From assembly GCA_949283075.1 (NCBI GenBank), contig CASDRH010000016.1, forward strand, positions 1 through 44,754: a stretch of DNA of 44,754 bases, written 5' to 3'. Positions 13,903 to 17,667 of the stretch are shown piece by piece. This stretch comes from an uncultured Pseudomonadota bacterium. Lineage in GTDB: Bacteria > Pseudomonadota > Alphaproteobacteria > Rs-D84 > CASDRH01. Under the pieces are notes generated by a model. It did not search any database. It worked only from the letters and a program-made list of their open reading frames with translations, and was not told where the DNA came from. The translations under genes and the position numbers were made by a program. Numbering within the stretch: the first letter of the stretch is position 1; each line of letters begins with the position of its first letter.

Positions 13903-14508
13903 ATGAAATTTATTAAATGGTGTCAGAAAATTTTACACAAAATGTATGATATGACTTTAGAGTTAGCAAATAAAACTTATGCTATGTTTGCATTGGCTGT
14001 TGTTGCTTTTACTGAAAGTATAGTTTTTCCGATTCCTCCTGATTTATTAGTTATTGCTATTTCTTTATCGAATCGTAAAAAAGCTTTTTTATCTGCTATA
14101 ATTGCGACTATATTTTCTGTGTTAGGAGGTATTGCTGCTTACTTTATAGGTATGTATTTATTTGATTCTGTCGGTAAAGCTATTATTGAGTGGTTGAATT
14201 ATGAAAAAATATTTAATCAATTTAATGCTTTATATAATAAATACGGTTTTTGGATTGTTTTTGGAGCTGGCCTTACTCCATTCCCTTATAAGGTTATTAC
14301 AGTAGCTTCTGGTGTTGTTTCTATGAATTTACCTGTGTTTATTTTAGGTTCTTTTATGTCAAGAGCTTCTAGGTTCTTTTTAATTTCAACTTTGATTTAT
14401 ATTTATGGTGAAAAAGCAAAAGTGTTTATAGAAAAACATCTTGGAACTTTATCTATTATATCATTCTTATTATTAGTAGGTATGTACTTTTTGATTGTTA
14501 TGATTTAG
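13903..14508 (+). CDS. DedA/YqaA-type VTT-domain membrane protein
   Basis: The product is 201 residues with several membrane segments. The DedA/VTT family signature is visible: an acidic ESIVFPIPPDLL re-entrant motif, an FGAGLTPFPYK loop with its conserved Pro residues, and a following helix with SRASRFF. Family members act in lipid-carrier recycling or proton-dependent membrane homeostasis (undecaprenyl phosphate or phosphatidylethanolamine flipping has been shown for some). GAAGG precedes the ATG. The last 11 bp overlap the end of the convergent nuclease-like gene. Confidence 0.85.
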   Translation: MKFIKWCQKILHKMYDMTLELANKTYAMFALAVVAFTESIVFPIPPDLLVIAISLSNRKKAFLSAIIATIFSVLGGIAAYFIGMYLFDSVGKAIIEWLNYEKIFNQFNALYNKYGFWIVFGAGLTPFPYKVITVASGVVSMNLPVFILGSFMSRASRFFLISTLIYIYGEKAKVFIEKHLGTLSIISFLLLVGMYFLIVMI

Positions 14509-15370
14509 ATATTTTTATAAAGTTTTTTACTCTATCTGTTAAAATATTTTCGTTTTTTAATGCGAATGAGAGTAATTCATCAATCGTTATTATTTTAACA
14601 TTCTCAGGTAATTTTGTTGGATATTTTCCTGATATTGTTGTTATATATACATCAAAATCTTTAAAATCATTTATAATTGAAAAATTTTCATTTATTTCTA
14701 CTGATCCAGTCTTACATTGGACCACTGCCTTTTTATAAGTATACTTATTTATCAACATATATTCATAAACTGCTGTACTTTTTTTACAAGTAGAAGGATA
14801 AATTATATATCCTTTTTCTATTTGTAAATATAATGATAATATATCTTCTAAATCATCTGGATGCAATAAATTAACTAATGGTATATTTAAATTTGATTTA
14901 TTATATAAATATTCACTATATTTTAATGCTGTTTCAGATTTTATTTTTTGAATTGTTTGCCCTCGATGTACAAAACTTCTAATTATATCGCCAGATACTT
15001 CATCTTGATTAAATTGTTTACTAAACCATTTACATTCTCTAAAGAGACTCATATATGGTAAATCTGGATTATATTTGTAATTTACCTCATTATCTTGTAT
15101 TTCACCTAAATAATATTTATTATTAAAATTAACCCAACACAAATCTCCTTTTTTCATATTTGTTATAGAGTTTTTAACGGATTTAAAACTTTTATTATTT
15201 TTAAAAAGTATATTTTCAGCATGATAGAGATAATCATTTATATCTTTATAACTTTCTTTATTTGTAAAGTTTATTGATACAATATTGTTTTTTAAACAAT
15301 AATTAATGTATTTATCTCTATCTACTTGATATCGGTCTTTAAATAAATGAACTCTATATAATTCACTCAT
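14498..15370 (-). CDS. Probable restriction-type (Mrr-like) nuclease protein
   Basis: The product is 290 residues. Residues about 72-92 (KKGDLCWVNFNNKYYLGEI) look like a small beta-barrel reader module of the EVE/PUA or SH3-like type. The C-terminal part (about 168-280) has a layout of the Mrr/PD-(D/E)xK nucleases: helix DDLEDILSLYLQ, then GYIIYPSTCKK, then E203 and the QCK triad at 218-220. Modification-dependent DNA cleavage is the likely job but is inference. It lies 43 bp after the 51-codon ORF and probably shares its phase-variable promoter. TAGGAT precedes the ATG. Its end overlaps the end of the DedA-like gene. Confidence 0.6.
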   Translation of the reverse strand: MSELYRVHLFKDRYQVDRDKYINYCLKNNIVSINFTNKESYKDINDYLYHAENILFKNNKSFKSVKNSITNMKKGDLCWVNFNNKYYLGEIQDNEVNYKYNPDLPYMSLFRECKWFSKQFNQDEVSGDIIRSFVHRGQTIQKIKSETALKYSEYLYNKSNLNIPLVNLLHPDDLEDILSLYLQIEKGYIIYPSTCKKSTAVYEYMLINKYTYKKAVVQCKTGSVEINENFSIINDFKDFDVYITTISGKYPTKLPENVKIITIDELLSFALKNENILTDRVKNFIKISKS

Positions 15371-15413
15371 AAATTATCCTACAAAATTTGAACTTAATTG
15401 AGAACAATATTTG

Positions 15414-15569
15414 TTATATATAAAGATAATTGTTATTTAATACTGATACTGTTTCAGTATTATATCCTTGGATTTTTGCATCTGTACCAACCCATGTTTC
15501 TGATAATTGACTACCTGATGTATCATATATTCTTAAATAACCATTTATTATTATTGCACTTCCAATCAT
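15414..15569 (-). CDS. Small ORF (51 aa) leading the nuclease-like gene
   Basis: The ATG at 15569 follows GGAGG at the ideal 5-nt spacing. The 51-residue product begins MIGSAIIINGYLRIYDTSG and is rich in Asn, Tyr and Ile with alternating hydrophobic residues, suggesting a small all-beta protein. It has no signal peptide and I recognise no family. Its strong translation signal and its position between the G9-tract promoter and the nuclease-like gene make it a likely real operon partner. It could be an accessory or inhibitor protein. Confidence 0.6.
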   Translation of the reverse strand: MIGSAIIINGYLRIYDTSGSQLSETWVGTDAKIQGYNTETVSVLNNNYLYI

Positions 15570-15601
15570 ATTTACCTCCATTGTTGGTTGATAATATCTT
15601 A

Positions 15602-15628
15602 ATTCTACCCCCCCCCATTAAAAGTCAA
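15602..15628 (-). promoter_or_regulatory. Putative phase-variable promoter with G9 tract in the spacer
   Basis: Read leftwards, TTGACT (15623-15628) and TAGAAT (15602-15607), each 5/6 to consensus, are separated by 15 nt that include nine consecutive Gs (C9 on the given strand, 15608-15616). Slippage by one or two Gs would bring the spacer to 16-17 nt. The strong GGAGG of the 51-aa ORF lies just downstream. Confidence 0.6.
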
Positions 15629-15644
15629 GTACAAAATAATAAAC

Positions 15645-16202
15645 TTATTTTTTCTTTTTGTTTTTAATTCTTTCTTTATGTGATTTCCAATCAAGTGCCT
15701 TGAATAATAAAAATAATCCTACTCCTGTGCATATGCATATATCTGCTACATTGAATGCTGGCCAGTGGTATTTTCCTATATAAAAATCTAAAAAATCTAC
15801 TACGGCACCGAATCTTATCCTGTCTATTACATTTCCAATTGCTCCTGCAATTACTAATGTTAATGATGCTTTGTATTTTAGCTCTTTTTCTTGTTCTATA
15901 AATTTGATTATCAATATTACTATGAATATTGACATTGCTGATAAAAGCCATCTCATAGCTTCTATATTTGATGATAGCATTGAGAAGCTTATTCCTTTAT
16001 TGAAAACTAAAACTAAGTTAAAAAATCCAAAATAGCTTCCAAATAAAAATCCTGTGTAGTTATTAAAATCTGATGGGAATGATAGTATCCAAAAGCTGTC
16101 ATATGCCATTGATATTATGATTTGTTTTGTTATAAAATCTAAAAGTAATCCTGCAATAAATATAAGCATTAAAAAACGTTTTGGATTTATTTTTTGATTC
16201 AT
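15645..16202 (-). CDS. lspA: Lipoprotein signal peptidase (SPase II)
   Basis: The product is 185 residues with four membrane helices. The two catalytic-aspartate motifs are present: GAIGNVIDRIRFGAVVDFLDF and PAFNVADICI. It removes signal peptides from prolipoproteins after lipidation. Several likely substrates lie in this window (5058, 22085, 36512, 36985). The C-terminus is Lys-rich. The reverse-strand gene begins about 90 bp after trpS ends. Confidence 0.96.
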   Translation of the reverse strand: MNQKINPKRFLMLIFIAGLLLDFITKQIIISMAYDSFWILSFPSDFNNYTGFLFGSYFGFFNLVLVFNKGISFSMLSSNIEAMRWLLSAMSIFIVILIIKFIEQEKELKYKASLTLVIAGAIGNVIDRIRFGAVVDFLDFYIGKYHWPAFNVADICICTGVGLFLLFKALDWKSHKERIKNKKKK

Positions 16203-17325: not shown

Positions 17326-17667
17326 TTATTTCTTTTTTGCTACTTTCTTTGTTGCAACTTTTTTAGCTACAGTTTTCTTTGCTGTTGCAACTTTTTTTGC
17401 AACTGTCTTTTTTGCTGCTGCAACTTTCTTTGTTGCTGTTTTCTTTGCTGTTGCAACTTTTTTAGCTACTGTCTTTTTTGCTGCTGCAACTTTTTTTGCA
17501 ACTACTTTTTTTGTTGCTGCTGCTTTTTTAGCTACTGTCTTTTTTGTTTCTGCAACTTTTTTTGCAACTGCTTTCTTTGTTGCTACTGCTTTTTTAGCTA
17601 CTGTCTTTTTTGCTACTGCAACTTTTTTTGGTTCTACTTTCACTGTTGTTTTTTTCTTTCCGAACAT
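17326..17667 (-). CDS. Histone-H1-like Lys/Ala repeat protein
   Basis: The product is 113 residues composed almost only of Lys, Ala, Val and Thr. Repeats of the form KKTVAKK-VA(A/T)A follow an N-terminal MFGKKKTTVK. This is the composition of bacterial histone-H1-like or AlgP-type nucleoid proteins, which bind DNA non-specifically through an unfolded basic tail. The gene is internally repetitive and prone to length change by recombination or slippage. It sits directly between a membrane protein with a similar tail and trpS. Confidence 0.85.
   Translation of the reverse strand: MFGKKKTTVKVEPKKVAVAKKTVAKKAVATKKAVAKKVAETKKTVAKKAAATKKVVAKKVAAAKKTVAKKVATAKKTATKKVAAAKKTVAKKVATAKKTVAKKVATKKVAKKK
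17331..17640 (-). repeat. Tandem degenerate codon repeats in the H1-like gene
   Basis: Blocks of about 21-36 bp encoding KK-TVAKK-VA units recur through the gene with third-base differences. They are not spaced like a CRISPR array and are fully explained by the protein repeat. Confidence 0.75.

Follow-up and report, generated by a model that had tools for sequence, protein, structure and literature searches.

On the minus strand of the window (the whole stretch of DNA that was analyzed, 44,754 nucleotides long), positions 15628-15602 read TTGACT TTTAAT GGGGGGGGG TAGAAT. A -35 and a -10 hexamer are thus held apart by a spacer of exactly 15 nt, made of six non-G nucleotides (TTTAAT) and nine Gs (Table 1). 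This is the arrangement given in the initial annotation, which had set a G9 tract exactly between TTGACT and TAGAAT with a 15-nt spacer, and the minus-strand sequence agrees. The stop codon of lspA, the gene upstream, lies 16 nt before the -35 hexamer. The ATG of a 51-codon open reading frame (ORF), at 15569, lies 32 nt past the -10 hexamer and has the ideal ribosome-binding site first noted for it; after an AT-rich gap of 43 nt it is followed by a gene for a 290-aa protein (ATG at 15370). None of the nine relatives that were examined carries the two-gene unit 3' of lspA, and the unit therefore resembles an accessory insertion. The source genus is represented by a single genome and offers no orthologous tract for comparison.

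Table 1. Features of the promoter locus, the intragenic tract genes and the second spacer promoter of the same genome
Feature	Position	Strand	Remark
lspA (signal peptidase II), gene upstream of promoter	15645..16202	-	
-35 hexamer TTGACT	15623..15628	-	TTGAC core common to the 59 order-wide poly-G promoters
G9 tract within promoter spacer, putative slippage switch	15608..15616	-	
-10 hexamer TAGAAT	15602..15607	-	commonest -10 of poly-G promoters, 19/59
Ribosome-binding site GGAGG, 5 nt ahead of ATG	15575..15579	-	
51-codon ORF (MIGSAIIINGYLRIYD...)	15414..15569	-	possible small partner or leader
Ribosome-binding site AGGA of 290-aa gene, six bases ahead of ATG	15377..15380	-	
290-aa PDC-S02 candidate defense gene	14498..15370	-	PADLOC profile match
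Tract gene, DXD glycosyltransferase region (PF04488)	L009		Pfam; in frame through tract
Tract gene, GT92	L010		Pfam; stop just past tract
Tract gene, hexapeptide transferase	L011		Pfam; frameshifted at tract
Tract gene, large	L012		no Pfam match; frameshifted at tract
Tract gene, GT2	L014:5891		Pfam; frameshifted at tract
Tract gene beside GT2 gene	L014:5016		no Pfam match; in frame
Tract gene, hexapeptide transferase	L015		Pfam; in frame
Second spacer promoter, TTGACTTTTCAT-G9-TAAAAT	contig 24, L013 4996-5004	-	

Over its full length, the 290-aa product matches the candidate anti-phage family PDC-S02 (PADLOC PDLC04816, E = 3.5e-59), with residues 3-288 aligned to profile positions 2-294 of 299, and the earlier designation of a putative defense gene is thereby upheld. 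Residues E175, E203, Q218, and K220 are invariant in eight PDC-S02 homologues, the last two forming Q218-x-K220 within a C-terminal E...E...QxK series. We take this series to match the Mrr-like E...D/E...QxK arrangement of PD-(D/E)xK nucleases, and the N-terminal IGW...GDLCWV...YYLG.I segment presumably resembles PUA/EVE-like modules. The initial annotation had noticed nuclease-like motifs in this gene, and the invariant triad suggests a nuclease. Judged from these residues, the C-terminal domain is probably PD-(D/E)xK nuclease-like and the N-terminal domain probably PUA/EVE-like; searches with Pfam and PDB profiles matched neither reading, and a single-sequence structure model was unusable (pLDDT 40). 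An assignment to AMTP2 or a putative transmembrane protein was set aside: its two weak PDB-profile matches were obtained with three sequences and were gone with eight.

Relatives of PDC-S02, recovered by six-frame or tblastn searches in the order, in plasmids, and in one phage, are rare. The order holds two (genomes G003 and G007, 40-41%), a few plasmids carry others (mostly 25-28%), and a C. difficile phage carries one at 33%; searches with back-translated patterns found none in GTDB contigs and none in viral contigs. Neither the G003 nor the G007 homologue has a poly-G promoter. The former lies in an island (L065 1-13001) with a tyrosine recombinase, a phosphoesterase-like ORF, and two PDC-S49-like NTPases, and the phage homologue (Clostridioides phage pCD1602_4, L239 3995-6292) adjoins an integrase-like ORF. 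Neighbors of other homologues include HsdR, SIR2 with DUF87, and mobile genes. PDC-S02 has been reported as a candidate phage defense (PMC13356809); the protein studied here matches the profile from end to end and has the conserved residues of the family, but differs in the phase-variable control proposed below, which was not found for PDC-S02 in the literature searched.

It is also conceivable that the 51-aa protein, as an inhibitor, antitoxin, or leader, is the product under control and that PDC-S02 is expressed from a separate AT-rich promoter inside or after the 51-codon ORF. This reading would suit the better ribosome-binding site of the short ORF, its closeness to the -10 hexamer, and the AT-rich gap ahead of PDC-S02. 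However, the stretch between the two ORFs has no terminator-like site, and its promoter-like matches do not exceed those expected from shuffled sequence. Nor do PDC-S02 genes of the order or of phages come with a homologue of the 51-aa protein; we regard this explanation as quite unlikely. The 51-aa product itself has no convincing homologue in the order (best E value, 0.0066) and none in phages.

Long G tracts also occur elsewhere in this genome. Within 107.6 kb of it, with both strands taken together, the number of G/C runs declines as expected from length 1 to length 5; runs of 6 to 8 do not occur, and nine runs are 9 to 11 long. Genome-wide pattern searches likewise gave nine tracts, the shortest being 9 long, and returned no run of 7 or 8, against an expectation of 0.03-0.09 runs of at least 9 for the whole 928-kb genome under first- and second-order Markov models, and a run of nine Gs is therefore as exceptional as the initial annotation had held. 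Such a gap in the run-length distribution is the pattern given by selected, slippage-maintained contingency tracts. Seven of the nine tracts (G9-G11) lie within genes, most of which encode glycosyl- or acyltransferases; Pfam searches were made with frameshifted pieces queried separately and frames left unmended (Table 1). These intragenic tracts are classical contingency loci. The -35/tract/-10 arrangement occurs in its exact form twice in the genome, the second copy being on contig 24, directly 3' of dnaK and a hairpin that ends in a run of Ts; it lies 64 nt ahead of a bacterial PH-domain gene and would drive that gene and a 220-aa ORF. Alongside its two spacer promoters, the genome thus has a phasome made up of glycan or surface genes. 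A gene read from the sequence as a CcrM-like methyltransferase also lies downstream of the contig 24 promoter. MutS_V is present in the genome, so slippage is not boosted through loss of MutS, and mismatch-repair loss was ruled out as the cause of the tracts.

The promoter design recurs across the order. The pattern TTGAC-N4..9-G7-N0..3-TANNNT, applied to 201 genomes, identified 59 poly-G promoters in 18 genomes and 12 of 23 genera, compared with 2 matches to the reversed pattern, and the original placement of the tract in a promoter spacer gains from this recurrence. The richest genomes were G010 (1.1 Mb), with 16, and G012, with 9. An ORF of at least 60 aa with an ATG preceded by a Shine-Dalgarno sequence began within 130 nt of 32 of 62 promoters, compared with 8 of 61 in the reverse direction; at random positions the same criterion gave 83 of 1,260. 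Start codons cluster at 20-36 and 53-64 nt past the -10 hexamer. Targets include outer-membrane beta-barrels and surface antigens, and by a simple hydrophobicity rule 23 of 50 targets in the order looked secreted versus 21 of 97 controls. In G010 and G178 (L195, L196, and L214), poly-G promoters stand ahead of dapB-like, cytidylate-kinase-like, and dCTP-deaminase-like genes; cmk-, dapB-, and dcd-like genes are odd targets for a random switch. The one candidate for a defense gene behind another poly-G promoter of the order, a radical-SAM match to viperin models, is probably generic and was rejected. Genomes of the order are near 1 Mb and one genus holds more than 160 species; Rs-D84 has been described as a gut lineage with reduced genomes and a presumed dependence on partners (PMC12306168).

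Promoter-like words are abundant in AT-rich DNA, and a meaningless homopolymer near such words, or an assembly artifact, would be another account of the locus. It is, however, an extremely improbable one given the excess of tracts over expectation, the twofold occurrence of the exact arrangement in the genome, and the 59 promoters against 2 control matches in the order; a chance homopolymer was ruled out by the Markov expectation and the reversed-pattern control.

Spacer lengths bear on what the tract does. Ordinary TTGACA/TATAAT promoters from eight genomes of the order (n = 137) have spacers of 16 nt in 48 cases, 17 nt in 45, and 15 nt in 9, so that 93 of 137 lie at 16-17 nt; the source genome itself provided 12 ordinary promoters, too few for a mode, and the optimum was taken from the order. 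Poly-G promoters, by comparison, have a 15-nt spacer in 32 of 59 (Fisher p = 6e-13 versus ordinary promoters), G9 in 39, and G9 together with 15 nt in 29. Such uniformity could indicate a fixed-length promoter class in which a constant G9/15-nt form is read by the RNA polymerase of the order, or by a regulator that binds G tracts, with no switching at all. The very constant 6-nt non-G part of the spacer and the housekeeping-looking genes behind some poly-G promoters are compatible with a fixed class, but the tracts range from 7 to 14 and the spacers from 10 to 19 nt, and some intragenic tracts are frameshifted, as slippage predicts. Moreover, intragenic tracts, which are free of spacing constraint, are also mostly 9 long, which argues that 9 is a slippage equilibrium and not a promoter constraint. 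We therefore consider a fixed class unlikely. At tprL of Treponema pallidum, tract lengths of 7-11 have been reported, with 9 in the large majority (PMC7864442).

If the tract does change in length, the ON state has to be assigned. Since ordinary promoters peak at 16-17 nt and poly-G promoters usually have 15 nt, we conclude with moderate confidence that the promoter is probably weak at G9 and strong at G10-11. The initial annotation had proposed that one or two added Gs would give a stronger promoter, and 15 nt is indeed rare among ordinary promoters, with the optimum within reach of such additions. A further set of promoters in the order combines G9 with spacers of 18-19 nt; these would reach the optimum on losing Gs. 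Alternatively, the tract may be hypermutable but G9/15 nt may be ON, or expression may be graded in a rheostat-like manner, with added Gs turning the gene down. That would be a subvariant of the explanation we prefer, since it disputes the direction and not the switch. It would agree with 15 nt being the commonest assembled state among relatives, with the unusual helical geometry of poly-G, for which ordinary promoters may be a poor guide to the optimum, and with T. pallidum tprE/G/J, in which 8 or fewer Gs are the permissive state (PMC7864442). However, the ordinary promoters of the order peak elsewhere, and 17 nt is the best spacing for tp0126 and porA, whose tracts truly lie between the two hexamers (PMC7864442). 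On balance, we find an ON state at G9 doubtful, although not far-fetched.

Promoters of this kind are found beyond the order. A cross-phylum pattern, TTGAC-WWW-N3..7-G8-TARNAT, applied to 84,980 species, returned at least 120 stretches (L069-L188); the matches listed come chiefly from gut Clostridia and also from Spirochaetes, Planctomycetota, Saccharibacteria, Helicobacter, and Moraxella. Among these listed matches, 48 of 57 downstream ORFs looked secreted, compared with 40 of 176 control ORFs (p = 1e-16). The secreted-looking ORFs included lipoproteins, pilin-like proteins, and proteins with signal peptides. The promoter design thus recurs in the order and, mostly before surface-protein genes, in other phyla. 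Within one genome, Caccopulliclostridium DVOJ01, copies of a promoter with the same core have G8, G9, and G10, giving spacers of 15, 16, and 17 nt; such copies in other taxa are indirect evidence that these tracts do vary.

The explanation that we favor, and think fairly probable, is that this is a transcriptional contingency locus at which slippage in the G tract switches a two-gene unit containing the PDC-S02 candidate defense gene. Slipped-strand mispairing in the tract, with variation in length in vivo as its expected outcome, would alter the -35/-10 spacing of the only clear promoter of the 51-aa ORF and PDC-S02. As assembled (G9, 15 nt), this promoter would probably be weak, with most cells weak or off. 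G10 or G11 would restore spacings of 16 or 17 nt, ordinary for the order, and, were expression to depend on tract length, would bring a minority of cells to express the unit. The protein made would probably be a single-protein anti-phage or modified-DNA restriction factor of the PD-(D/E)xK nuclease type, and its cost or self-toxicity could favor the off state in most cells, from which we infer that the switch may serve to limit autoimmunity. Read from the sequence in this way, the tract is probably a switch by which a candidate anti-virus gene is turned on and off at random.

The spacer-slippage mechanism itself is already known. In porA of Neisseria meningitidis and tp0126, an OmpW homologue of T. 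pallidum, a poly-G tract between the -35 and -10 hexamers alters their spacing (PMC7864442), and here too a G homopolymer lies between the hexamers, is far above chance and of a length that would make it hypermutable, and leaves the spacer 1-2 units off the optimum. Those promoters serve outer-membrane proteins, whereas the present one precedes a cytoplasmic candidate defense gene of an alphaproteobacterium that is uncultured and has a reduced genome. The closest functional parallel is Cj0031 of Campylobacter jejuni, a phase-variable Type IIG restriction-modification enzyme whose ON cells restrict phage (PMC4889913). There, as proposed here, a poly-G tract acts as the switch of an anti-phage nuclease system, but the Cj0031 tract is in the reading frame and switches translation, whereas here promoter spacing would change, and Cj0031 is a methyltransferase-nuclease, whereas no methyltransferase is attached here. 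Homopolymeric tracts are known to regulate prokaryotic genes by changing length (Orsi et al. 2010, PMC2831843); the abstract of that paper concerns tracts within coding genes, and the tract described here lies in a sigma-70-type spacer. A spacer-slippage promoter on a single-gene defense candidate was not found in the literature searched, which consisted of open-license papers. What is new is therefore the use of this design on a candidate defense gene and its recurrence in reduced-genome bacteria.

A broader proposal, to which we give even chances of being right or wrong, is that poly-G-spacer promoters make up a network of stochastic expression across the genome, both in this order of gut alphaproteobacteria with reduced genomes, where one 1.1-Mb genome has as many as 16, and convergently in gut Clostridia and in other phyla. 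This lineage would have carried the network beyond surface proteins to an innate anti-phage nuclease, as population-level bet-hedging of immunity via promoter spacing. If correct, a single-gene candidate phage defense would be under a transcriptional slippage switch, offering a direct test of whether populations retain a costly immunity in a minority of their cells, and bacteria of about 1 Mb that are probably partner-dependent would maintain dispersed random promoter switches legible in raw sequence. The simplicity of the promoter pattern should also permit screening of metagenomes for switchable surface and defense genes. Elsewhere in the window, a 113-aa ORF on the minus strand (17326-17667) encodes a Lys/Ala-rich protein with AKK/VAKK repeats like those of histone H1-type tails.
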